From NCBI GenBank assembly GCA_003217735.2, contig CP031585.1, positions 3,459,501 to 3,523,500 on the forward strand: a stretch of DNA of 64,000 nucleotides, in the 5' to 3' direction. Below the pieces are notes generated by a model that was not told the DNA's origin, made no database searches, and saw only the letters and a program-made list of their open reading frames with translations. The stretch is from Marinibacterium anthonyi. GTDB lineage: Bacteria > Pseudomonadota > Alphaproteobacteria > Rhodobacterales > Rhodobacteraceae. Each line of letters begins with the position of its first letter. Within the stretch, counting starts at the first letter, position 1. This document shows, piece by piece, positions 1-37,353 of this stretch. The position numbers and the translations under genes were made by a program.

Positions 1-3000
1 ACCCTGTCCAGCATCGCAGCCCGCGCCGCCTCGGCCATCGTCGCGCGCGGCAACATCCGCTCGGACGCCGCACGCTCAATGCTCTTACGCAGGCTGTCCG
101 CCACCCCTGGGCACGATGAAAGCCTTATCGCACCGCCGGTCTACGAGGCTGCGCGCATCTGGCAGTCCGCCGAACCCGACATGGACGCGCTTGCGGGCGA
201 TCTGCTGCGCGACGATCTCGTCGACGCACTGCACACCGCAGGTGCGGAGGCGATTCCCAGGGACCGCCCCCCCTACTGGCACCAGCATGAGGCCTGGAAA
301 TCCGCGGACGCCGGGCGCAGCTACATGGTCACCAGCGGCACCGGGTCCGGCAAGACCGAGTGCTTCATGGTGCCGATGCTCAACGATCTGCTGAACTGCG
401 CCGATACCGGCGCGAAACACGGCGTACGCGGGCTGATCCTCTATCCGCTGAACGCGTTGATCGACTCGCAGCGCGAGCGGCTCGGATCGTGGATCAAGCC
501 CTTCGATGGCCGCATTTCCTATGCGCTCTACAATGGAGACACGCCCGAGACGCGCAAGCCGCTCCAGAAGCCCGCCCCGGCCGAGATCGGAGATCGCAAG
601 ACGCTGCGCAGCACGCCCGCGAACCTGCTCGTGACGAACGTCACCATGCTTGAATACATGCTCACCCGCGCACAGGATCGTGGCATTCTCGAGAAATCGC
701 AGGGCCAGCTGCGCTGGATCGTCCTTGACGAGGCGCACAGCTACGTCGGCGCGCAGGCCGCGGAGATGGCGCTGCTGCTTCGGCGCGTGCGCCAGGCCTT
801 TGGCGTCCGGCCCGAGGACGTCCGGCTCGTCGCCACCTCGGCCACCATCGGGGAAGGCCCCGAGACGGTCGATGCGCTGCGCAAGTTCGTGGCCAGCCTC
901 GGCGGGGTAGATCCCTCGCAGGTGGACATCATCATGGGGCGCGAGGAACCGCTTGTCCTGCCATCCCCCGCCAAGGACGGCCCCATCGGCGCGCTCGGCG
1001 ACACGCCCGAAGCGCTCTGGCGGGCGCTCGCCCCCCATCCCCGCGTCCAGAAGGCGCGCGCTATGTTGCGCTCTGGTGGCGCGCGGCTTTCCGAACTGGC
1101 GAAGGTGCTGGTCCCCGAAAGCCGCAGCGAGGCCGAGGCGGAAATCCTGCTTGATGCCATGGCGCAGGCGCAGGAGCCGGGGCAGCCCCCCCTTGCGCCT
1201 TGGCGGCTCAACGCCTTCGAGCGTTCGCAGGCCGGGCTCTGGGCCTGCGTCGATGCCGAATGCCCGAGGCGCTCCGAAGAACTCTGCGCCGAGGGCAGCG
1301 ACTGGCCTTTCGGTCAGATCCACCTGTTCCAGCGAGAGCATTGCGGCTGCGGCGCCCCGGTGTTCGAGATCGGCGCCTGCTCGGATTGCGGCACCCCTTG
1401 GCTGCTTGCCCAGGAAGAGATCGGCAAGATCCGCGCTCTGCGCCAGTCCGCGGCGGAAACTGAAGAGGATGATTTCCGACTGGACGTCGAGCCGGGCGAA
1501 GACAGCGATGGTACCAGCGCCAGTGAGACGCGCGTCATCGGCCCGGTAAAGCACGGGTATAAGCAGGAGTGCCTGCGTCACACCGACTCGGTTCTGCGCG
1601 ACATTGATACGGATGAGCCTGGGCACAGCAACCTGCACGTCTGTGAACCCGACAAACGCGGCTGCTGCGCCAATGCCCATTTCGAGCGCAGCCGGGTCGC
1701 AGTCCAACGCTTCGGCTCGCCCTTCCTTCTGGGGAACGCGATCCCGCAATTACTCGAGGCGCTTCCCCGCCCGGACGGCATCGACGGGCCTGCTCCACTT
1801 GGCGGGCGTCGCCTGCTGTCCTTCACCGACAGCCGACAGGGTACCGCACGCTTCGCCGCGAAGCTTCAGCAGGAAGCCGAGCGCGGCCTGACCCGCGCGG
1901 CGATCTGGCATGCGGTGCAGGGCAAGGCCGCCGGCGATCCGGAGAAGGCCGCCGAACTTCGGGGGCAGGTCGCGCTCATGCGCTCGAACCCGGCCTTCGC
2001 AAGCATGCTGCCAGACGCCGAAGCGAAGCTTGCCGAGGCTGAAGGCGGCCTTGCCCCGGTCAGCTGGAACGAGATGATCAACACGCTCGCGGACGTGCCG
2101 GACCTGCGCAGCTTTGCCGGAGACGTCTGGCAGGGGCGCGGCGCGAGCCATCCCTTTGGTGGTCTGACCCTTGCCAAGGAACCGGCCGCCCTTGCCCGGA
2201 TGCTTCTGCTGCGCGAGGTTTTCCGCCGTCCGAAATTGCAAAACAACGTCGAGACCATGGGCCTTGCACGGCTCTGCTGGCCCCAGCTCGAACGGCAGAT
2301 GGCCAGTGATGTCCCTGCGGCGCTGCGCGAAGCGGGGCATGAGGCACCCGTCTGGGTGGCGCTGGGGCTTGCGGCGATCGACCTTGCCTTCCGCAACAGA
2401 CTCGCCGTGCAGATGGAGCGCACGCCCGTCGATCTCGCCCACTGGATTTCGCCGAGGCAGGCCACGTCGCAAGTCGCTGAACCCGGGCTTGAGTTCGATG
2501 ACCGGACGACGGAACGAAAGACGCACAAGTGGTGGTCCGGCGCATCGAGCAAGGCCGGGCTGGTGCAACTTGTTTATCGCCTCATTGGCGGCAGTTCGGA
2601 GGCTCCGCTCGACCGCGAGCGCTGTGAGGCGGTGTTGACTGCCCTCTGGACTGCGCTTGTGCGATCCAAGGTTCTCACCCGCGCCGACCCCGGATGCTGG
2701 CAGCTCGACTTCACCCAGTCCGCTCTGATCGGGATGGACCATGCCTGGCTTTGTCCTGTCACTGGCAAGCTGCTACCTTATTCGCTCGCCGGTCTCACAC
2801 CCAACGATCCGGCATCGACGCAAAAGATGGAGCGGATCGCCCTGGCGCATCTTCCCGTCGCCAGCCCTGTGGGGCTGACCGTAGCGGAGCGCGCGCAGGT
2901 CGAGGCGTGGCTTGCCTCCGACGAAACCATCGCCGCCTTGCGCAGAAAGGGCATCTGGACGAATCTTCAGGACCGCGCCGCGACCTTCGCCCCCTTCCTG

Positions 3001-5988
3001 CGCGCGCAGGAGCATTCGGCGCAGATCGACCGTCAAAGCCTCAAGGGCTATGAAGACGCCTTCAGAAAAGGGCGCATCAACATCCTAAACTGCTCGACCA
3101 CCATGGAAATGGGCGTAGACATTCCCAACGTCGGCACGGTCGTCAACACCAACGTTCCGCCGGCTCCGTCAAACTATCGCCAGCGCATCGGCCGGGCCGG
3201 ACGACGCGGCGAGCCCTGGGCCATGTCCTTCACCTTCTGCAAGGACAAGCCGCTCGACTGGCAGGTTTTCCGCAATCCCGAAACGCTGCTACGCGCCGAG
3301 ATCCCCGCCCCCGCCGTGCGGCTCGACAGTCCGGTCATGATCGCACGCCACGTCAATGCCCTGCTGCTCGGCATGTTCCTGCGGCGTGACGGCGGGATCA
3401 GCATTCAGACGGCTATCGGAACGTTCTTCGGCACCCGCGATTTCAAGATCGATGAAGATTTGCCGAAGACCTGGGTCGAGGAATCCATGGCCGATCAGTT
3501 CCTGTCGGAGCTCGATGGTGCATGGGCGAGAGAGCCGGAGGTCGCAGAGGCCATTGCCCTGCTCGTTCGCGGCACAGTTCTCGAAGGCAAGGCGAACTTT
3601 TCCGCCAACACTGCGACAGCTTTTGCCGACCTGGTGAAACGCTGGCGGCTGGAATACGAGCGTTTGGTCGACGGCTGGCGCGCCGCTCCGCCGCGCGAGC
3701 CGGAAAAAGCGTTCTATTTTAACCGCGCGAAGCGCATGCGCCGCGAGTTCATGATGACGGAGCTGGCGCGGCGCGGCTTCACCCCTGCCTATGGCTTCCC
3801 GGTGGATGTCGTCACCTTCGACCATATCGGTGGAGATGGTGGGAAGGGCCCTACGCGGCAGCTCGAGATCGCAATCCGCGACTATGCTCCCGGGTCTGAA
3901 ATCGTCATCGACGGACTGGTCCATCGCTCGGACGGCATCCTGCCCGCCTGGAGCAATACCGCCGATGCTGACAGTCTCGACGACCTGCGTAGCCACTGGC
4001 GCTGCAGGACCTGCGCAGCCTTCGGATTGTCTCGTGAAAACGTGCATGAATGCCCGCAATGCGGCGATCCGGTGAACAACAACCAGCTGTTGCGCCCATC
4101 CGGCTTTCTCGGCCGGCGCAAGCCGCATGCCGGCTATGAGCAGGTCAGCTTCGTTGCTCCCGACCGCCCGCACGTGTCCAGCGGTGACGTGCCTTGGTCG
4201 AGCCTCGCAGACCCGTCCGTCGGTCGCCTGCGCAGCTCGCGGCTGGGGCATGTGCTCAATACCGCCTCGGGGCAATATGGACACGGCTATGCGATCTGTC
4301 TTGCCTGTGGCCAGGCCGAGCCGGAGCTTGGCTCAAGGCAAGATACCCCGGTCTCGCCCAGGATGCTGCTTCACAAGCCCTTGCAACCGATCCGCAACAA
4401 CCCGCGCCACGATGGAAACTGCCCCGGCGGAGACGAGGCCTCGCGTAAGATCCGCCGCAATGTGGTGCTCGGCAACGAGATCACGACGGATGTGTTCGAA
4501 TGGCAGCTGCGAGATCTTGGCAGCACCGACACAGACCGCCGCCGCGCCATGGCGATCGCCGCGAGCCTGCGCGAGGCGCTCGCCAAATCGCTCGGCATCG
4601 AGGCAGAGGATATGGGAATCGCAGCTGCCCCCAGCCTTCTCGAGGACGGCAAGCGCGCCATGTCGGTCTACCTCTTCGACCGCGCATCTGGCGGGGCGGG
4701 CTTTGCACCGCTGGCGCAGGACAGGTTGCCTGATCTGGTCGACCGCGCCAGCGGCATTCTTGATTGCCCGGCACAGTGCGCCTCTGGTTGTCCCGAATGC
4801 ATCCTGCGCGGCGACATCCAGTACGACATCGCTCTACTGGATCGCCCCGGCGCGCTGGAGACCCTCGCCAGTGTGCGGGAGCGGTTGAAACTCCCCGAGA
4901 CACTGAAGGTCTTCGGAGAACAGACACGCGCCCTGCCGGAGTCCCTGTCCGACTGGCTGGTGCCCCGGATGCGCGGAGGACAGGTCACCGACCTGGTGCT
5001 GTTCTTGCACGGAGACGCGGCACGCTGGGATCTGCGCGACCTTGCCAGCCGCTTGCCCCGCCGCGACGAAGCGCGCGTGTCCCAAGTCGTACTTCACAAG
5101 GACAGCGTCGCGAAACTAGCCCTGCCTGAAAAAGTCGATCTGGTCCGGTTCCTCGCCGAGTGCGGGGCGAGCCTGCATGCGATGCCGCAGCTTCCCACCC
5201 AGCAGGGCAAACCTGTTCTGTGCCAATTCAGCTATGACGGTGCTCTTCACGCCGTCGCGGCGGTCGCCGAAGAAAGCGCCCTGCCCGACGGAGGCTGGGG
5301 CCGTCCCGAGAGCGGGCCGATCCTGCTTGGCCCGCGCGCTGCCGAAGACCTCAGCCCGCGCCTGTCGGTCGAAAAGGTCGTCCAGTTCAAGGAAGGAAAT
5401 GCCGTTCACCGGGATGCCGGAAGCCGCTTCGACCGCAGTGTCGGGCATTTCGGTCACGAGTTTTGGAAACTGGTCCGCGAGATGCGTCCGCAGCTTCACC
5501 AGGATGTCCCCCTGAGCTCCGTCACCTATTCGGATCGCTACCTTCTGGCGCCGCTCCCGGTGCGGCTACTGTTCGAGCTGCTGCGGACAATGCCGGGGCG
5601 CGTCGAGAACACCGCGATCAAGGTCATCACTGCGGCGCAACACACCGACAACCGCTATGCCAGCCACACCATCGAGGACAACTGGACGGATGACAGCCTG
5701 CGCCTGCGGACAATGGAGGCCTTGCTTCCGGGGGTCAGGGTGAGCATCCTGTCGAAAAAGCTCTGCCCGCACCCGCGCAGTTTCGAGCTGACCTGGGAGG
5801 ATGGCCGCACAGCGCGCATCCATCTTGACCAGGGTCTCGGCAGCTGGACCGTAGCGCACATGCAGGCACCGCGCTTTGATGTGGAAGACGATCCGAAACG
5901 ACAGGCCTCCACGCTCGCGAAAATGACCTTCGAGCTGCGCAACCGTCAGCGAAGCGGTATCGAAACGCCGATCTGGGTGTCTTGGTGA
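1..5988 (+). CDS. DruE-like DEAD-box helicase with DUF1998/MZB region (5' partial)
   Basis: Very large superfamily 2 helicase, probably the DruE-type component of a Druantia anti-phage system. The frame is open to base 1 with no stop, and the 26 codons before the ATG at 79 read as plausible protein, so the true start probably lies upstream. Counting from that ATG (1969 aa): Walker A GTGSGKT near residue 87, DEAH near 217 followed by an alanine-rich helix, motif III SAT near 254, and motif VI QRIGRAGRRG near 1035. A CxxC...CxxC zinc ribbon lies near 1309-1333 and a C-x3-C-x3-C-x2-C cluster of MZB/DUF1998 type near 1563-1575. The last 390 residues match nothing I recognise. Giant size plus DEAD helicase plus DUF1998 fits DruE better than DISARM DrmA or a plain MZB helicase, but the expected DruH partner would be upstream and unseen. 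Helicase assignment is firm; the Druantia label is inference. Confidence 0.8.
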   Translation, partial: TLSSIAARAASAIVARGNIRSDAARSMLLRRLSATPGHDESLIAPPVYEAARIWQSAEPDMDALAGDLLRDDLVDALHTAGAEAIPRDRPPYWHQHEAWKSADAGRSYMVTSGTGSGKTECFMVPMLNDLLNCADTGAKHGVRGLILYPLNALIDSQRERLGSWIKPFDGRISYALYNGDTPETRKPLQKPAPAEIGDRKTLRSTPANLLVTNVTMLEYMLTRAQDRGILEKSQGQLRWIVLDEAHSYVGAQAAEMALLLRRVRQAFGVRPEDVRLVATSATIGEGPETVDALRKFVASLGGVDPSQVDIIMGREEPLVLPSPAKDGPIGALGDTPEALWRALAPHPRVQKARAMLRSGGARLSELAKVLVPESRSEAEAEILLDAMAQAQEPGQPPLAPWRLNAFERSQAGLWACVDAECPRRSEELCAEGSDWPFGQIHLFQREHCGCGAPVFEIGACSDCGTPWLLAQEEIGKIRALRQSAAETEEDDFRLDVEPGEDSDGTSASETRVIGPVKHGYKQECLRHTDSVLRDIDTDEPGHSNLHVCEPDKRGCCANAHFERSRVAVQRFGSPFLLGNAIPQLLEALPRPDGIDGPAPLGGRRLLSFTDSRQGTARFAAKLQQEAERGLTRAAIWHAVQGKAAGDPEKAAELRGQVALMRSNPAFASMLPDAEAKLAEAEGGLAPVSWNEMINTLADVPDLRSFAGDVWQGRGASHPFGGLTLAKEPAALARMLLLREVFRRPKLQNNVETMGLARLCWPQLERQMASDVPAALREAGHEAPVWVALGLAAIDLAFRNRLAVQMERTPVDLAHWISPRQATSQVAEPGLEFDDRTTERKTHKWWSGASSKAGLVQLVYRLIGGSSEAPLDRERCEAVLTALWTALVRSKVLTRADPGCWQLDFTQSALIGMDHAWLCPVTGKLLPYSLAGLTPNDPASTQKMERIALAHLPVASPVGLTVAERAQVEAWLASDETIAALRRKGIWTNLQDRAATFAPFLRAQEHSAQIDRQSLKGYEDAFRKGRINILNCSTTMEMGVDIPNVGTVVNTNVPPAPSNYRQRIGRAGRRGEPWAMSFTFCKDKPLDWQVFRNPETLLRAEIPAPAVRLDSPVMIARHVNALLLGMFLRRDGGISIQTAIGTFFGTRDFKIDEDLPKTWVEESMADQFLSELDGAWAREPEVAEAIALLVRGTVLEGKANFSANTATAFADLVKRWRLEYERLVDGWRAAPPREPEKAFYFNRAKRMRREFMMTELARRGFTPAYGFPVDVVTFDHIGGDGGKGPTRQLEIAIRDYAPGSEIVIDGLVHRSDGILPAWSNTADADSLDDLRSHWRCRTCAAFGLSRENVHECPQCGDPVNNNQLLRPSGFLGRRKPHAGYEQVSFVAPDRPHVSSGDVPWSSLADPSVGRLRSSRLGHVLNTASGQYGHGYAICLACGQAEPELGSRQDTPVSPRMLLHKPLQPIRNNPRHDGNCPGGDEASRKIRRNVVLGNEITTDVFEWQLRDLGSTDTDRRRAMAIAASLREALAKSLGIEAEDMGIAAAPSLLEDGKRAMSVYLFDRASGGAGFAPLAQDRLPDLVDRASGILDCPAQCASGCPECILRGDIQYDIALLDRPGALETLASVRERLKLPETLKVFGEQTRALPESLSDWLVPRMRGGQVTDLVLFLHGDAARWDLRDLASRLPRRDEARVSQVVLHKDSVAKLALPEKVDLVRFLAECGASLHAMPQLPTQQGKPVLCQFSYDGALHAVAAVAEESALPDGGWGRPESGPILLGPRAAEDLSPRLSVEKVVQFKEGNAVHRDAGSRFDRSVGHFGHEFWKLVREMRPQLHQDVPLSSVTYSDRYLLAPLPVRLLFELLRTMPGRVENTAIKVITAAQHTDNRYASHTIEDNWTDDSLRLRTMEALLPGVRVSILSKKLCPHPRSFELTWEDGRTARIHLDQGLGSWTVAHMQAPRFDVEDDPKRQASTLAKMTFELRNRQRSGIETPIWVSW

Positions 5989-6144
5989 TAAAACGGGCCG
6001 CGCCCTCGCCGGGTGCGGCCGCACTCTATTAGATTGTAGAGCGGGCGCAGAAGTCAAAGGAGTAGCTCGTAAAGTCGATCAGCGCCCTACCCTTCGTTTG
6101 GATGCCTGGAACCATGCTGCCGCTTCGGGCCGGATACCCGAGTG

Positions 6145-6330
6145 TCACTCCTTGGCCTCGTCTCCACGCTGGACCGCCAGCCATTCCGTCATAACCCTCC
6201 GCACAACTTCCGGTCGGGAAGGCAAATCTTCTTGCTCCCGCCGATAATCGTCGATCGCCTTGAGCATCTGACGATCCATGCGGATCGTGACTGGCTCGGT
6301 ATCCAGTTTTGGACGGCCCATTCTAGCCAT
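6145..6330 (-). CDS. Ribbon-helix-helix (CopG/Arc-type) regulator
   Basis: Protein of 61 aa with the pattern of a ribbon-helix-helix DNA-binding protein: a short basic N-terminus (MARMGRPKLD), a beta-strand segment (PVTIRMD), then two helices (QMLKAIDDYRREQ and SRPEVVRRVMTEWL). A strong GGAG ribosome binding site (6338-6342 on the complement) precedes the ATG. It is convergent with the large helicase gene and divergent from the 173-aa gene at 6453. Its promoter overlaps the promoter of that gene around a perfect palindrome, so autorepression together with control of the rightward module is likely. It could instead be an antitoxin, but no toxin-like gene lies next to it on the same strand. Confidence 0.75.
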   Translation of the reverse strand: MARMGRPKLDTEPVTIRMDRQMLKAIDDYRREQEDLPSRPEVVRRVMTEWLAVQRGDEAKE

Positions 6331-6354
6331 GTCGAATCTCCTTCAAGAAACTAC

Positions 6355-6388
6355 TTGACTATATGACGTCATAAATCTAAATTGTCAA
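6355..6388. promoter_or_regulatory. Overlapping divergent promoters for the RHH gene and the rightward module
   Basis: On the plus strand TTGACT (6355-6360) and TAAATT (6378-6383) are 17 bp apart and point at the 173-aa gene. On the minus strand TTGACA (6383-6388) and CATATA (6360-6365) are also 17 bp apart and point at the RHH gene. The two promoters occupy the same 34 bp, so one bound repressor could silence both. The assignment rests only on consensus match and spacing. Confidence 0.6.
6362..6373. promoter_or_regulatory. Perfect 12-bp palindrome, candidate operator
   Basis: TATGACGTCATA is a perfect inverted repeat in the shared core of the two divergent promoters, covering part of the minus -10 element and the plus spacer. 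RHH dimers bind short palindromic or tandem sites, so this is the natural operator for the adjacent 61-aa regulator. Binding is inferred. Confidence 0.55.
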
Positions 6389-6452
6389 GTGTGACGGGGA
6401 CTCTCACCTCCCCATCACACTCTAACCCCAACCGATCATCAGGAGATCGATC

Positions 6453-6974
6453 ATGGCTGACACCTGCACTACCACGCGCCTTGGCGCGGATGAACCCTTG
6501 CACTTCCGCCATTCCACTGTTTCGGGGCTGTTTTCCCAGTTGATCGCCGCCCTGGCCGCCGCAATCGAGGCTGAGCGCGACATTGAGCATGGCCTCTGGT
6601 CCGATCCCGGCTTCGACCGCTGGTTGAAGGCGGCGGAACTCGGGTGGGAGCGTGCCACCGGTCGCTGCTGCTCCGTCATCAACGCACCAGCTACCCGTCC
6701 GAGCGATGTCCCGCTCCAGCGTTTCGCACGTCACTTGCACTGGACGCTCGGCTGCGAGACCGCTGCCGAACTCCGAACTGCTCGCCAGGTCGTTGCGGGA
6801 CATCCGGACCTCTTTTCCTGGAACGGAAATTGCCCCGAGGCGCTGCGCGTCGCGCAGATGCTCGCGCGCGGTCAACAGCAGTTCGACGAGATCTGCATGC
6901 TCGACATGCTGAACCCGGCTGACGCTTCGGCCTCCCCCGAGGGTTGCTCCGGTTACGAGCCGTTCGCCGCCTGA
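6453..6974 (+). CDS. Uncharacterised 173-aa protein, first gene of the rightward module
   Basis: I do not recognise a family. The ATG has an AGGAGA ribosome binding site about 8 bases upstream and lies downstream of the divergent promoter. The protein looks soluble and mostly helical: residues about 20-60 read as an amphipathic helix pair (LFSQLIAALAAAIEAERDIE), with no signal peptide or membrane segment. Several cysteines are scattered (CCSVI, GCETA, NCPEAL, EICMLD) without clear CxxC pairs. It is followed by a strong hairpin and then by the GIY-YIG gene on the same strand, suggesting one transcript. Function unknown; coding status is supported by the start signals, length and position. Confidence 0.6.
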   Translation: MADTCTTTRLGADEPLHFRHSTVSGLFSQLIAALAAAIEAERDIEHGLWSDPGFDRWLKAAELGWERATGRCCSVINAPATRPSDVPLQRFARHLHWTLGCETAAELRTARQVVAGHPDLFSWNGNCPEALRVAQMLARGQQQFDEICMLDMLNPADASASPEGCSGYEPFAA

Positions 6975-7003
6975 CCTGAACAAACATCGCCCCGGCACCA
7001 TGA

Positions 7004-7030
7004 CGCCCTGACCCGCAACGGGTCAGGGCG
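7004..7030. repeat. Perfect 12-bp hairpin between two genes of the module
   Basis: CGCCCTGACCCG (7004-7015) and CGGGTCAGGGCG (7019-7030) are perfectly complementary around the 3-base loop CAA. No T-run follows, so it is not a classical terminator. It could be an mRNA processing or stability element, an attenuator between the 173-aa and GIY-YIG genes, or a protein-binding palindrome. Confidence 0.7.
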
Positions 7031-7077
7031 AGAACAGCCGTGCCCGCGTTCTCAGTCAACTTCCCGGAGGTCCAAAC

Positions 7078-8079
7078 ATGGCTCATCCCGCACACACTTC
7101 GCTCAAACCCGTTCCCGTTCGCGCACATATCTATATCGCCCCCACCCGGACCAAGCTCTTCCTGCCGCGCGGTTCCCGGAACCACGCACCGGAAAGCTGG
7201 GCGCGCGACTATCCCGGACCGATCAAAACGGAGTGGGACGCAATCGCTCGATCCAAGGGCTTCGAGCTGGTCAGCAGGGTCCGGGACAAGTTCCACGTTG
7301 TCTTGCGATGCCACACCTGCGGCGCTTTGACGGCGCAGAAGCTCTTCACCTTGCGCAGCGCCCAGCCAGCTTGTGCGAGTTGCAGGCATCACGCCATCCT
7401 GGCAATGGCGCAGAAGGCAGGCTTGGAATTTCAGGGCTACGATCCTGAATACCATAAGATCGGCATCTACCGCGCTCCATGTGGTCACACCGTGCGCCGA
7501 CAGTTCGGACAGATCGAACGGATCGCTGCCGGCCACTGCAAGTTGCGCTGCGAGACCTGTCATTCCGGAAAGGAAGCCGAGGAAGCAGCGGACCGGGGGT
7601 GGCAACTGCTGGGAAGCGATCCGGAAGGCAACCCGAACTACCGGATCTATCAGCACGGCTGTGGTCACACGCAGAGGGTGGCCCGCGCGAACATGCAGAG
7701 CGGCCGCTTCCAATGTACGGAATGTGGAGAGGGCTGGGCCACCGCGCCAAGCAACCTCTATGCCATTCGACTGGAGCTTCCGACCGGACTGAAGGTCGTG
7801 AAGCTCGGCTTCTCGCGCGACCCGCAGTCGCGTCTGCACCACCAGCTCTTGCTTCAACCCGGAATCCAGGCAGAGCTTCTGCGGGTCGTTCCGCAGCGGA
7901 CCGGCCACGCCGCATTGTGTCGCGAAAAGGCCCTCCATCGTGCGCTGAAGAAGTCCCATCCGGACGCGATCATCCCACATGAGCACTTTGAGGACTGGCT
8001 GTCGGTCAAGACCGAGATCTACGGGATCGAGATCGCGCCGCTCATTCTGAAGCGCCTGGACGACATCCGAAAGAAATAG
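7078..8079 (+). CDS. Zinc-ribbon / GIY-YIG nuclease-like protein
   Basis: Protein of 333 aa with two parts. Residues about 80-220 hold a CxxC...CxxC zinc ribbon (CHTCG ... CASC) and two repeated zinc-binding units, each starting CGHT and ending in a Cys pair (CETC, CTEC), similar to DNA-binding modules of homing-type nucleases. From residue 225 the pattern NLYAIRL ... VVKLGFSRDPQSRL, followed by E-K-A-L-H near 285 and HEHFEDW near 301, matches a GIY-YIG fold of the T5orf172/Mug113-like type. A textbook GGAGG site (7066-7070) precedes the ATG. It probably recognises and cuts DNA, or binds it without cutting. There are no signs of an intron or intein around it, so it is not an obvious homing element. 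It sits between the 173-aa gene and the protease gene. Confidence 0.72.
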   Translation: MAHPAHTSLKPVPVRAHIYIAPTRTKLFLPRGSRNHAPESWARDYPGPIKTEWDAIARSKGFELVSRVRDKFHVVLRCHTCGALTAQKLFTLRSAQPACASCRHHAILAMAQKAGLEFQGYDPEYHKIGIYRAPCGHTVRRQFGQIERIAAGHCKLRCETCHSGKEAEEAADRGWQLLGSDPEGNPNYRIYQHGCGHTQRVARANMQSGRFQCTECGEGWATAPSNLYAIRLELPTGLKVVKLGFSRDPQSRLHHQLLLQPGIQAELLRVVPQRTGHAALCREKALHRALKKSHPDAIIPHEHFEDWLSVKTEIYGIEIAPLILKRLDDIRKK

Positions 8080-8294
8080 CGGCCCAAGCGTGGCCCGGTT
8101 CCGGAACAGCCCTGTCCGGATCCGTAGCTGCCACAACGGCCCGGCCCGTTTGCCCGGAAGCGAAACCCGTACACCACAGCGTGCGGGACGCCCTGACCTG
8201 CGCCGTGGCGCACACTTACCGGACAGCGCCACCTCTTCTTCCCTGAACCTTCCCACGCCCCCTTCCGGATCGCGCACCAACCCGGGCGTCCTGA

Positions 8295-8310
8295 TCCGTA
8301 CAGTACGGAG
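8295..8310 (+). promoter_or_regulatory. Palindrome overlapping the ribosome binding site of the FtsH-like gene
   Basis: TCCGTAC-A-GTACGGA (8295-8309) is a perfect inverted repeat. Its right arm contains most of the GGAG (8307-8310) that serves the ATG at 8317. As RNA, UCCGU could pair with ACGGA across a 5-base loop and hide the ribosome binding site; as DNA it could be an operator. This GGAG also decides the start: it lies 6 bases before ATG 8317 and directly touches the TTG at 8311, which is too close. Confidence 0.5.
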
Positions 8311-8316
8311 TTGACA

Positions 8317-10548
8317 ATGACCCAACCTTCCCCCCAATCCCCCCTTCCAGAGAAAAATGGCGCGAAGCGCCCGCAGTGGTGGGCCTACGCCCAGGACTGC
8401 ATCGCGCGCCTGCGCGCAACCGAAGCCGACATCGTTGATCTCGAACGGCGTGCCTCGGCCGGCGACATCGCCGCAGGCGACACTTTGATGGAGTACGAAG
8501 GCGGCGACAGCCCGAAACCGCCTTCGCGCCGCGCAGTTTCCGGGATTGAGTCCGCCGCCGAGGCCATGGCGCGCGTCAGCAGCGCACCTCATCTGCCGCA
8601 GGACGAGTGGCGCGCGATCGCGGCAGAAGGCGGCGATCCCTTCGCCACCGCTCAGGACGGCAGCACCCGCTCCGCCATCCCGCTTCCCCTCCGCGACGTG
8701 ATCCTTCTGGCGCGCCTCGCCGCAACCTTCCGGGATGCGGAGGGCTGGGAGGCGGTTCTGCAACCCGGAGCGATGACGATGGTTGTCGGCCTCGAACCCA
8801 CCCTCTCCCTCGGCAAGTTGCTGACGGCCGCCATGCTGCCGGAGGGCTGGTCGACCCAGAGCCGGGCGCCTCGCGCGTCGCCGCATATGGTGCTCCAGCT
8901 GCCTGACCGGCCAGTTTCGGAAAAGGAACTGGAGCGCCTGCTTCACCATCCGGCGCCAATCCTGCTGCCTATCGCAAAGCAGGAGCACCTGCCAGCTCTC
9001 GTCGGCGCCGGCGAGACAGGCGCGCGCGTTCTGGTCCTCGAAAAGGTGAATGCCGATATCCTGCTCTTCGCCCTGAGCGTCAGCCACAGCGCGACCGGAC
9101 GGATCGATGCGGACAGCGTGCGGGCAATCTTGCCCAACGACGAAAGCCTGGCCGGTTTGGAGGCGGGACATCTGGCTATGGCATGCCGCGCGCCGACAGC
9201 CAGAGAAGTAGCAGAACGGATCTCGTTGATGACCAGGAAGGCGCCTACCGGCGAAGTCGCGCGGGTGCGCTCCGGTCCAGCCATCATCGACGGCACCACG
9301 CCCGCGCACGACGCGGTCCGGAACATAGTGGAGGACCTTGCGGCGTGGCAGGTTGGCGATCTGGACTGGAGCGAGATGTCGCGCTCGCTCTTGATCCATG
9401 GCGCTCCGGGGACGGGCAAGACCTATCTTGCCCGGCAGATGGCCGAGGCCGCTGGTGTCGCCTTGGTCGAGGGCAGCTTTGCCGACTGGCAGTCCCAAGG
9501 ACATCTTGGACATATGCTTGCCGCGATGATCAAATGCTGCGACGCGGGGATCGCGAAAGCACCTTCTGTCTTGTTCATCGATGAAATCGACTCTGTCGGA
9601 TCGCGCTTCGGCGGCGATCAGCACGGGATGAGCTACCGAACGCAAGTGGTGAACGGCTTCCTCCAGCAGATCGACCGGCTGGCACGCACCCCGGGCGTGA
9701 TCCTAATCGGGGCCTGCAACCAGATCAGCCGACTGGACCCAGCCATCACGCGACCTGGCCGGTTTGACCAGATCCACCGGATGCCACTTCCGTCGCTTGC
9801 AGATATCAGGCTGATCTTGCACAAAAGGCTGGCGGACACGCTGCCGGAAAACGAGATCGACAGCATGGCCCGCGCCGCTGTCGGCAAGACCCCCGCCGAA
9901 CTCGACGCCGCATTGCGTGCCGCCACCGCCGACGCGCGGCGGCAACGGCTGCCCATGTCATCAGACCTGATGCGCCGACACCTCGGGATCGATCGGCCCA
10001 ACCCGGACCTGCTCCGCCGTATCGCCGTCCACGAAGCCGGTCACGCGCTTGCCGCCGAGCTGCTGGTTCCGGGATCTGTCGTGAAGCTCAGCCTCTCTGA
10101 CCGCGACGGTCGGACCGAACGCCGTTCGACCTTCGTCGAGCTGACAGTCGAGGAGATCGAAAGAGAGCTGCTGATCCTCATGAGCGGGAGGGCTGCCGAG
10201 AAGCTGGTGCTTGGCACGATCTCTGGCGGGGCGGGAGGAGATCCAGAAAGCGACCTCGCCCTAGCCACTGAGTTGGTTCTGCAAATGGACCGAGAGCTGG
10301 GCCTTGGCCGCAACGGCCATAGCTGGTTGGGGCCTGCCAACATGCACCGGCTGTCCGAGGAGGAGAGGCAGCGGGTCCGTGCGAAGCTGGGTAAGGCCAT
10401 GAACCACGCTGCCAAACTCCTCACGCCACACATCGACCAGCTAGATGAAGTGGCAGCCGCGCTCATCGACATCCGAGAGCTCCACGGCGCGGCAATGAGG
10501 CGGCTGATCGCCGGACCGGATCGAGAACCCACACTTAGTCGTAGCTAA
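8317..10548 (+). CDS. FtsH-like AAA+ ATPase / M41 zinc metalloprotease without membrane anchor
   Basis: Protein of 743 aa. The N-terminal ~300 residues are unassigned and contain no transmembrane helices, unlike housekeeping FtsH. An AAA+ module follows: Walker A GAPGTGKT near residue 362, Walker B LFIDEID near 418, sensor GACNQ, and arginine finger segment RPGRFD. A peptidase M41 domain is then marked by HEAGH near residue 572 and a downstream acidic SDLALAT segment that supplies the third zinc ligand in FtsH. All catalytic residues look intact, so an active ATP-driven protease is predicted. Last gene of the rightward module, 237 bp after the GIY-YIG gene, closed by a terminator. Housekeeping FtsH would carry two N-terminal membrane helices and keep core neighbours; neither holds here, so this is an accessory paralogue. 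Target unknown. Confidence 0.82.
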   Translation: MTQPSPQSPLPEKNGAKRPQWWAYAQDCIARLRATEADIVDLERRASAGDIAAGDTLMEYEGGDSPKPPSRRAVSGIESAAEAMARVSSAPHLPQDEWRAIAAEGGDPFATAQDGSTRSAIPLPLRDVILLARLAATFRDAEGWEAVLQPGAMTMVVGLEPTLSLGKLLTAAMLPEGWSTQSRAPRASPHMVLQLPDRPVSEKELERLLHHPAPILLPIAKQEHLPALVGAGETGARVLVLEKVNADILLFALSVSHSATGRIDADSVRAILPNDESLAGLEAGHLAMACRAPTAREVAERISLMTRKAPTGEVARVRSGPAIIDGTTPAHDAVRNIVEDLAAWQVGDLDWSEMSRSLLIHGAPGTGKTYLARQMAEAAGVALVEGSFADWQSQGHLGHMLAAMIKCCDAGIAKAPSVLFIDEIDSVGSRFGGDQHGMSYRTQVVNGFLQQIDRLARTPGVILIGACNQISRLDPAITRPGRFDQIHRMPLPSLADIRLILHKRLADTLPENEIDSMARAAVGKTPAELDAALRAATADARRQRLPMSSDLMRRHLGIDRPNPDLLRRIAVHEAGHALAAELLVPGSVVKLSLSDRDGRTERRSTFVELTVEEIERELLILMSGRAAEKLVLGTISGGAGGDPESDLALATELVLQMDRELGLGRNGHSWLGPANMHRLSEEERQRVRAKLGKAMNHAAKLLTPHIDQLDEVAAALIDIRELHGAAMRRLIAGPDREPTLSRS

Positions 10549-10597
10549 CCTCCAGGAACTGCTTGGACCGTGCGACCAAACTGGATACCCTTCCCCC

Positions 10598-10617
10598 TGT
10601 GCTACAACTGTAGCACA
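10598..10617. promoter_or_regulatory. 20-bp palindrome resembling BlaI/CopY-family operators
   Basis: TGTGCTACA-AC-TGTAGCACA is a perfect 9-bp inverted repeat around 2 bases. Its core TACA-NN-TGTA is the signature bound by BlaI/MecI/CopY-type winged-helix repressors. It lies 50 bp after the protease gene, with no repressor gene of that family in the window and no obvious promoter next to it. It may be a leftover of a lost blaI-type locus or a site acting in trans. Confidence 0.5.
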
Positions 10618-10725
10618 TCGACGTAACACAGACAGCGATCCGCGCAGCGCAAATGACAGCGTTTTCAATGGCTTAAAATGCGGTCGAATTTTGCTCCGCG
10701 CCCTACCGCCGGAGCCAAAGATTTC

Positions 10726-10759
10726 AAGGGCTTAGAGGTTTCCGCCTCTGAGCCCTTTT
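10726..10759 (+). terminator. Rho-independent terminator
   Basis: Stem AAGGGCTTAGAGG (10726-10738) pairs with CCTCTGAGCCCTT (10745-10757) with one wobble, 6-base loop TTTCCG, and a T-run that starts inside the stem (TTTT, 10756-10759). It is the first terminator after the FtsH-like gene and probably ends the module transcript. Confidence 0.75.
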
Positions 10760-10961
10760 GCTTTGCCAACCGCCCGGAACGCCGAGAGATCCGCGTTCGG
10801 AACGGGGCGGTCCCGCGGTTTCGACCGCCATTTGCCGGATCGACCGGAGACACCCGGGACGCAGACGGGAGAGGGTTTTTCGGGCCATGGCGCCACCAAA
10901 GACCGCCGGGCAGCGCCCCGCGCGGCTAAGGCGGGATGCGGGGATCCAAGGGGTGTTTTGC

Positions 10962-36510: not shown

Positions 36511-37353
36511 ATGAGCGCGATCGACACCCTGCCCCCCCTGCGCGAGGTCATCGCCAGCCACGGCCTTTCGGCGCGCAAATCGCTGGGCCAGAACTTTCTT
36601 CTGGATCTGAACCTGACCGCCAAGATCGCCCGTCAGGCCGGTGACCTGTCCGCCTGCGACGTGCTGGAAATCGGCCCCGGTCCCGGCGGCCTGACCCGGG
36701 GCCTGCTGGCCGAAGGCGCGCGCCGCGTGGTCGCCGTGGAAAAGGACAGCCGCTGCCTGCCCGCCCTGCACGAGATCGCCGCCGCCTATCCCGGCCGGCT
36801 GGAGATCCTGGAAGGCGACGCGCTGCAGATCGATCCCATGGCGCATCTGACGCCGCCGATCCGCATCGCCGCCAACCTGCCCTACAACGTGGGCACGGAA
36901 CTGCTGGTGCGCTGGCTGACGCCCGCGCAATGGCCGCCGTTCTGGCAAAGCCTGACGCTGATGTTTCAAAGGGAAGTGGCCGACCGCATCGTGGCGCAGC
37001 CCGGGTCAAAGGCCTATGGGCGCCTGGCGATCCTGGCCCAGTGGCGGGCCGAGGCGCGGATCGTGCTGTCGCTGCCGCCCGAAGCGTTCACCCCGCCGCC
37101 GAAGATTTCCAGCGCCGTGGTGCATCTGACCGCCCTGCCCGAACCGCGCTATCCGGCCGATCCGGCCGTTCTGTCGCGCGTGGTGGCGGCCGCCTTCAAC
37201 CAGCGGCGCAAGATGCTGCGCGCGGCGCTCAAGGGCGTCGCCCCGGATATCGAGGACCGGCTGGTCGCCGCCGGCCTGAAGCCGACGGACCGTGCCGAAA
37301 CGGTGCCTCTGGAAGGGTTCTGCGCGCTTGCCCGGGAAGTGGCCGGCACCTAG
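36511..37353 (+). CDS. rsmA: 16S rRNA dimethyladenosine transferase
   Basis: Dimethylates two adjacent adenines near the 3' end of 16S rRNA during ribosome assembly. It is 280 aa. Seen: SLGQNFLLD near residue 24, the SAM-binding [13 protein letters not shown] near 51, catalytic motif [11 protein letters not shown] near 123, and the C-terminal helical domain with [14 protein letters not shown]. It lies 67 bp after pdxA on the same strand and is the last gene of the lpt-surA-pdxA-rsmA run. Confidence 0.96.

Follow-up and report, generated by a model that had tools for sequence, protein, structure and literature searches.

What is the function of the four-gene block that adjoins a Druantia helicase gene in the alphaproteobacterium Marinibacterium anthonyi? 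The block lies in a stretch of 64,000 nucleotides (here called the window; contig CP031585.1, positions 3,459,501 to 3,523,500), which is part of a 5.56-Mb contig in a genome of 6.8 Mb. It comprises a divergent ribbon-helix-helix (RHH) regulator gene, a gene for a 173-residue protein (P173), a putative nuclease gene and a gene for a soluble AAA+/M41 protease, and adjoins druE3. All four genes named in the original prediction, which had been made from the sequence alone, are present at the locus. We find that the RHH protein, an RNA leader predicted in front of P173, P173 itself and the protease recur, and that the cutter is the variable member. From these comparisons, we consider it an even proposition that the block is an anti-invader module, self-contained and horizontally moving, which consists of a nuclease and its protease.

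In 390 genomes from the order Rhodobacterales (that of M. anthonyi included), the GIY-YIG-like nuclease was found in 48 and P173 in 45, and module-type M41 genes occupied at least 92 places in 69 genomes. The M41 counts are lower bounds because two candidates per genome were scored; L136, L184 and L187 also have an M41 gene, found outside the listing of M41 places. An M41 gene lay within 4 kb in 50 of the 63 clusters with the GIY-YIG-type gene, and wherever the genes were found together their order was P173-nuclease-M41 on one strand. Local searches of 112 fetched loci placed the M41 gene downstream in 47 of 51 GIY-YIG loci with enough sequence, and each of the 62 RHH matches at E 1e-5 or better was on the strand opposite the module. 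An independent named set, obtained by searching six closer GIY-YIG sequences against a collection of 84,980 species represented by one genome each, gave 56 loci, with M41 in 48, P173 in 49 and RHH in 35. Fifty-two of these loci were from Rhodobacterales, two were from unplaced alphaproteobacterial metagenome-assembled genomes (MAGs) and the remaining two were on short MAG contigs labelled Oceanospirillaceae and Rhodospirillales. In a class-wide sample of 289 genomes, the GIY-YIG type was present in M. anthonyi, with no match in the other 288. Plasmids of Paracoccus, Rhodobacter, Antarctobacter, Tritonibacter, Sulfitobacter and Roseovarius also carry the module, complete or in part. The genes thus recur together in many Rhodobacterales genomes and not only here, keeping their order and orientation fixed next to a wide variety of neighbours, as would be expected of the new module that had been suggested. 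Fixed gene order in dozens of loci rules out a chance neighbourhood, and by comparison with its relatives the block is a conserved unit.

The nuclease slot of this unit is exchangeable, which had been overlooked. A nuclease gene lies directly upstream of M41 in 63 of 72 M41 loci, encoding a GIY-YIG protein in 47 and a PD-(D/E)XK-like protein in 16. The PD-(D/E)XK-like protein, of ~185 aa, directly precedes M41 in 24 of the 103 loci with a long M41 gene, and one such protein (L022) passes the Pfam cut-off for PDDEXK_5 (E 4.9e-7). Further occupants of the slot are a 374-aa protein weakly like CoiA in L165 (E 0.086) and a 201-aa tyrosine-recombinase domain in L019 and L020 (E 8e-19 and 7e-20). 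On a tree of 103 M41 proteins built by a quick method, the PD label changed 10 times and the GIY label 20 times, of which starred branches force 8 and 16, respectively; shuffled labels gave 21.7 changes for PD and 34.0 for GIY. These label changes indicate that the nuclease has been exchanged repeatedly on one scaffold.

In the window, the slot is filled by a Cys-rich protein of 333 aa (7078-8079, + strand), which had been described as a zinc-ribbon GIY-YIG protein. That description gains some, if weak, support from a match to the PHROG 681 endonuclease family (E 7.5e-9), the topology of the AlphaFold 2 (AF2) model (confident, 90.2) and conserved residues; no Pfam GIY-YIG match was found for the protein (threshold 0.05). 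The C-terminal part of the model has the beta-beta-alpha-beta-alpha topology expected for GIY-YIG domains (strands 225-233 and 239-246, helix 249-257, strand 264-273 and helix 276-293). Across 36 nuclease sequences, Y228, K242, G244, R252 and E283 are invariant; the residues typical of GIY-YIG nucleases are Y, (K/Y)-G, R and a catalytic E. Several conserved Cys pairs resemble a zinc ribbon or treble clef. The family shares with GIY-YIG proteins of the T5orf172/MUG113 type the C-terminal topology and the conserved Y, K-G, R and E. It differs from them in that its Pfam matches are weak (MUG113 in 11 of 36 members and T5orf172 in 9 of 36; best E about 0.001) and that several Cys-pair modules precede the domain. 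A profile search against the PDB gave five weak matches, none of them a GIY-YIG protein. We also considered a phage module and rejected it: no GIY-YIG relative was confirmed in viral contigs, and the matches found in phages were two distant ones, in Vibrio phages (25% identity).

The protease (743 aa; 8317-10548, + strand) matches Pfam AAA (2.9e-26) and Peptidase_M41 (5.5e-12), and residues 326-732 align with FtsH structures. As in FtsH, an AAA+ ATPase with a Walker A motif is fused to an M41 domain with HExxH. In contrast to FtsH, the module protease is accessory in its distribution, has a nuclease neighbour, carries its own N-terminal region of ~320 aa and lacks membrane helices. The absence of these helices, already pointed out in the original prediction, was confirmed: hydropathy over 19 residues peaks at 1.62 within the first 330 residues, and the value exceeds 1.9 in one of 103 M41 proteins, that of the window included in the set. 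Walker A is kept in 103/103 of these proteins and HExGH in 97/103; among the six exceptions, L166 has HEARH and the other five show nothing even with a looser pattern. Since 389 of the 390 order genomes carry some M41 match, housekeeping FtsH had to be set apart, and the module-type places were separated from these matches by score and profile coverage, a cut of our own. M41 was also considered as a phage gene and rejected, as the 12 matches listed, of 44 phage records, cover about a quarter of the protein, in its AAA part. More distant soluble AAA-M41 genes adjoin a metallophosphoesterase gene in L249, L250 and L034 (annotated in L034 and recognised by eye in the viral contigs L249 and L250), and on a Neorhizobium plasmid (L032) the AAA part and the M41 part are encoded by two genes. 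IetAS, a PADLOC system, likewise couples an AAA ATPase to a protease in an accessory locus, and the module AAA matches IetA (E 4.4e-23). This match is limited to the AAA region (353-538), and the module protease, which is M41 and fused, sets it apart from IetAS, in which IetS is a separate subtilisin-like serine protease.

P173 (6453-6974, + strand) is a core member of the module, a role the original prediction had overlooked, and a candidate inhibitor or adaptor. AF2 models it as a bundle of six helices (mean pLDDT 83.6). Searches of PHROG and PADLOC assigned it to no family, and its Pfam match was sub-threshold (E 0.09). A HEPN-type toxin was considered and set aside, as the Foldseek matches to HepT chains were weak and not significant (E 0.087, TM 0.27). 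The CopG-type RHH regulator (61 aa; 6148-6330, - strand, stop codon 6145-6147) matches Pfam RHH_1 (E 2.5e-4). The claim of a divergent promoter survives in part: a promoter-like site (TTGACT-17-TAAATT; one found, 0.5 expected by chance) precedes P173 on the + strand at 6355-6383, and none was found for the RHH gene. Within the spacer of this site lies a palindrome, TGACGTCA (6364-6371), which is a candidate RHH operator.

The gap between the RHH and P173 genes holds a hairpin at a fixed place, followed by CUAACC and then by a small hairpin around AGGAG. In the window, hairpin 1 and CUAACC span 6388-6431 and hairpin 2 (GAUC..GAUC), around the AGGAG ribosome-binding site, spans 6433-6449 (both + strand; predicted fold of 6376-6455). 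The fold has an energy of -24.4 kcal/mol compared with -15.0 when shuffled (z -3.59). RNAalifold and a first model (R1), applied to a MAFFT alignment of the leaders, gave no pairs because the arms were misaligned. A covariance model (R2) was then built from five leaders and gave 82 matches in 98 sources. By a rule of our own, a sense match lay at the leader in 55 of 80 module loci, many of these matches being weak (E up to 4.2); they comprised 29 loci of the GIY type, 13 of the PD type, one CoiA-like locus (E 0.67) and 12 unlabelled loci. Eleven plasmid loci of the GIY or PD type have a leader match at E 0.04 or better, and the leader models had no match in 15 control loci (R2) or in five more (R3). 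In the 24 best matches, 90.6% of cells were paired; 53 cells showed a change in both partners, and no cell showed a change in just one. These 24 were drawn from 39 chosen sources and include four of the five leaders used to build the model. The 53 compensatory cells compare with 15.3 in shuffled data (sd 3.2) and with at most 12 in slid structures, in an alignment that was fitted to the structure and favours it. A third model (R3) was run on 26 whole genomes, 16 with the module and 10 without a GIY-YIG or module-type M41 match, with at most 150 of up to 3,811 candidates scored per genome; 21/21 matches at E 0.05 or better lay at modules. Rfam searches over 6100-10800 gave two matches below threshold (E 2.2 and 3.6), both away from the leader. 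By sequence comparison, a covarying and undescribed promoter-proximal 5′ hairpin precedes P173 in both the GIY and PD types. An RNA is the simplest reading of this element, the alternative being a palindromic DNA site.

The surroundings of the module point towards defence. From 69 loci, 247 non-redundant upstream proteins were collected and a random 138 scanned with PADLOC; as controls, 201 proteins came from 20 regions about 150 kb away, of which a random 143 were scanned. Proteins <150 aa or >2100 aa, near-duplicates and a random part were dropped before the counts. Matches to PADLOC families at E 1e-10 or better numbered 277 upstream and 20 in the controls, figures to be read with the knowledge that related models are counted several times on both sides and that the controls are random chromosome, unmatched for accessory DNA. 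Among the upstream families listed (25 of 277), BrxC, a type I restriction enzyme, PycC, pAgo, HerA and DrmA reached E <1e-100; the best control match was 2.5e-53 and none was <1e-100. Single loci include L166, with a TIR-NLR (E 3.2e-9) and a methyltransferase, and L014, with Dsr1. Many upstream neighbours are ordinary transporters and enzymes (Pfam). Judged by gene content, the association of the module with defence genes is strong against these unmatched controls.

In M. anthonyi, the DruE-like neighbour noted before is DruE3 of a complete Druantia III (79-5988, + strand; PADLOC DruE3, 1972 bits), with DruH3 (E 1.8e-58) at L002:16558-19872. The module shares an island with this system, whose definition (DruH with DruE3) fits the neighbouring genes. 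The RHH, P173, nuclease and M41 proteins have no Druantia match in PADLOC, and the idea that they are a part of Druantia was rejected, as other modules adjoin other cargo, e.g. type III restriction-modification (R-M), TIR-NLR or Dsr1. The island itself was identified from a tRNA-Asn(GTT) gene in L002 (13980-14054). The last bases of this gene, CCCTACCGCCGGAGCCAAA, recur at window 10701-10719 (+ strand), 153 bp after the M41 stop, as an identical 19-bp attR. The exact 14-mer CTACCGCCGGAGCC occurs in the genome only at 3453639 and 3470203, 16,564 bp apart. An island of 16.6 kb is thus defined in tRNA-Asn, which contains an IS3-like transposase (by eye), DruH3 and DruE3 and has the module at its far end. 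A terminator that had been assigned to the block (10726-10759) falls outside it, beyond attR, and is probably the old downstream terminator of tRNA-Asn.

The same tRNA-Asn pair flanks module-ended islands in G269, G302, G371 and G286; in G346, G067 and G026 the contigs break. The cargo comprises a type III R-M system in G371 (MTase_III, E 7.7e-147), type I R-M genes (by eye) and PDC-S21 (E 9.9e-91) in G302, and metabolic and other genes in G286 and G269. In G302 (L238), G371 (L240) and G286 (L241), a 602-660-aa protein with a tyrosine-integrase-like end (by eye) lies next to the tRNA; the one in L240 (431-2296) has no Pfam match at E 0.1. No integrase was seen by eye in the M. anthonyi island or in G269. 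Each of the G302, G371 and G286 islands also encodes a small coiled-coil-like protein (96-129 aa). The module is thus found at the end of tRNA islands, another feature that had been overlooked, and could serve as a marker for tRNA-Asn islands in Rhodobacterales. Near the edge of a 42.8-kb viral contig (L247) lies an M41 remnant: at this prophage-like edge, an integrase-like C-terminus is followed by a truncated M41 gene that is 89% identical to that of the window. This edge suggests that prophages use the same site as the module islands.

A unit of 4.3-4.7 kb, essentially the module, is also found duplicated. G251 has two copies that are 99.8% identical over 4275 bp with different flanks; this stretch ends 63 bp past the stop codon of the RHH gene on one side and 18 bp past that of the M41 gene on the other. 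G304 has two copies, 99.98% identical over 4657 bp, again with different flanks; an assembly error between them is possible, since in a relative (L180) the upstream flank is that of one copy and the downstream flank that of its counterpart. The G251 copies, L166 and L167, differ at the protease active site, one having HEARH and the other HExGH. A simple transposon was rejected, as neither inverted repeats nor target duplications were seen by eye at the copy ends. An end motif, TGACAGCGTT, was examined and led nowhere.

The reading as an anti-invader module draws on the fixed order, the nuclease exchange, the defence neighbours, the kept motifs, the leader covariation and the duplicated unit. 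We propose that the RHH protein and the leader would keep the operon nearly silent, and that P173 may be a small partner that restrains the nuclease or passes it to the protease. Foreign DNA or phage takeover would disturb the silent state, upon which the AAA+ ring would unfold and cut P173 or a nuclease gate, leaving a free nuclease to cut DNA. The switch would then be located in the AAA+/P173 pair, which on this proposal would make the nuclease replaceable by unrelated folds while the rest stays constant. In its most specific form, which we put forward tentatively and with less confidence than the general reading, the block represents a new class of immune module: an AAA+/M41 and P173 sensor-protease core, a switch of RHH repressor and leader, and a plug-in slot for nucleases of unrelated folds (GIY-YIG, PD-(D/E)XK and perhaps CoiA-like or tyrosine recombinase), in a 4.3-kb cassette that moves whole.

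Several results weigh against this reading or against its parts. The GIY-YIG identity of the window protein is a weak assignment from weak profile matches and topology, and Foldseek against the PDB gave a best E of 0.069, with no GIY-YIG structure among the 50 matches listed. P173 also had no significant PDB match (best E 0.087) and no known fold match. The PD-(D/E)XK profile was built from the slot proteins of these loci, so the other PD proteins are called by homology. Of seven slot proteins run against Pfam, one passes the curated cut-off, three (L028, L194 and L210) match PDDEXK_5 below it, two (L135 and L233) have no match at E 0.1 to 1 and one is CoiA-like. Membership also varies: 9 of 72 M41 loci have neither nuclease type, GIY or PD, the CoiA-like protein being present in one of these nine, and profiles detected P173 in 46 of 72 and the divergent RHH gene in 47 of 72. 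M41 is missing in 4 of 51 GIY loci. It is likewise missing in L017, L021, L026 and L027 on Paracoccus and Sulfitobacter plasmids, loci which carry RHH, P173 and nuclease genes, one of them near repB/repC. As such loci exist, the nuclease and P173 may work alone or be harmless. Among the families matched in the defence controls, one is a reverse transcriptase model (E 2.8e-46) and viperin is matched weakly; the commonest family, mad3, was found 5 times in the controls and 6 times upstream. For the leader, AGGAGA is invariant in 35 leaders that had all been chosen for having it, and its conservation is partly due to selection, as leaders (37 of 87) were picked by the pattern AGGAGA..ATG. Eighteen R2 matches are the hairpin read backwards, eight fall outside the rule (three, in L126, L155 and L168, inside an over-long RHH call and five elsewhere) and one further weak match, in L002, is outside this tally. 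The window leader was not found by R2; R3 matched it weakly (E 0.61) at the expected place, its only window match at E 2. R3 matches were found in 11 of the 16 module genomes, the five others including M. anthonyi. The tyrosine-recombinase loci L019 and L020 had no leader match, and of ten more loci only L025 had one at the module.

The rival explanations overlap with one another and with the anti-invader reading, and their likelihoods need not total one. The rival that survives best, although we regard it as unlikely, is addiction or element maintenance, with the nuclease as toxin, P173 as antitoxin and M41 turning over the antitoxin, such that cells that lose the island or plasmid are killed. 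The module anatomy is compatible with a type II toxin-antitoxin locus, where RHH autoregulators are usual. Many copies are on plasmids, some beside relaxase or repB/repC genes, with others at island ends, and tight regulation by the leader would suit a toxic product. However, the RHH gene is divergent and not co-transcribed with the nuclease, the enrichment beside defence genes is strong and loci lacking M41 exist; to our knowledge, a dedicated antitoxin-degrading protease inside such a locus would be unusual.

A second rival, which we rate as slightly less likely again, turns the protease into a safety catch: M41 would degrade the nuclease and so hold its level down, and an infection that drains ATP or blocks the protease would free it, for either defence or addiction. 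The same anatomy would serve, and this account explains why the protease nearly always accompanies the GIY nuclease (47/51). Yet a single protease would need to recognise nucleases that are unrelated in fold, and nuclease loci without M41 exist.

Improbable in our view is that the module serves its own mobility, the AAA+ protease moving or copying the cassette together with the nuclease, whether homing-type GIY-YIG, PD-(D/E)XK or, in some cases, a tyrosine recombinase. The nearly identical, differently flanked copies of G251 and G304, the tyrosine-recombinase domain before M41 in L019 and L020 and the two islands in which no integrase was seen would fit. Against this, neither inverted repeats nor target duplications were seen by eye at the copy ends, an ordinary tyrosine integrase lies next to the tRNA in 3 of 5 complete tRNA-Asn islands (by eye), and we know of no case in which an AAA+/M41 protease is a mobility part. 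Least probable is a regulatory or housekeeping set, combining protein quality control with a nuclease for DNA repair, that simply goes along with islands: M41 proteases often have housekeeping roles and the broader soluble relatives adjoin unrelated genes such as the metallophosphoesterase, but the distribution of the GIY type is patchy (48/390 and 0/288, as above) and the nuclease exchange, mobile islands and defence neighbours argue otherwise.

Returning to the anti-invader reading, activation of a pro-nuclease by a protease has been proven for unrelated enzymes, e.g. those of Hachiman and AVAST (PMC12799240). The nuclease and protease genes of Hachiman, AVAST, Lamassu, DRT and canu loci are likewise paired in defence loci and were repeatedly acquired, and combine an MBL-fold nuclease with a trypsin-like or caspase protease. 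The module instead combines a GIY-YIG-like or PD-(D/E)XK-like nuclease with AAA+/M41, and has P173, RHH and the RNA leader in addition. We therefore propose that the module works like these pairs without belonging to them, because the enzyme families differ. No system with the exact gene set was found in PADLOC or in the open-licence literature (few subscription papers were covered), in keeping with what had been stated from the sequence. If true, the anti-invader reading would add a second, independently evolved arrangement of a nuclease under a protease to bacterial immunity, driven by an ATP-dependent AAA+ enzyme and not by a trypsin or caspase. Natural nuclease swaps in the exchangeable slot could be used to ask what the protease core recognises, and, for an operon suspected of a role in defence, the covarying 5′ leader would reveal how operons of this kind stay silent. 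Elsewhere in the window, a tRNA-Ser (TGA) gene lies at 37242-37337, and the same tRNA type adjoins the module in L137 and L211.

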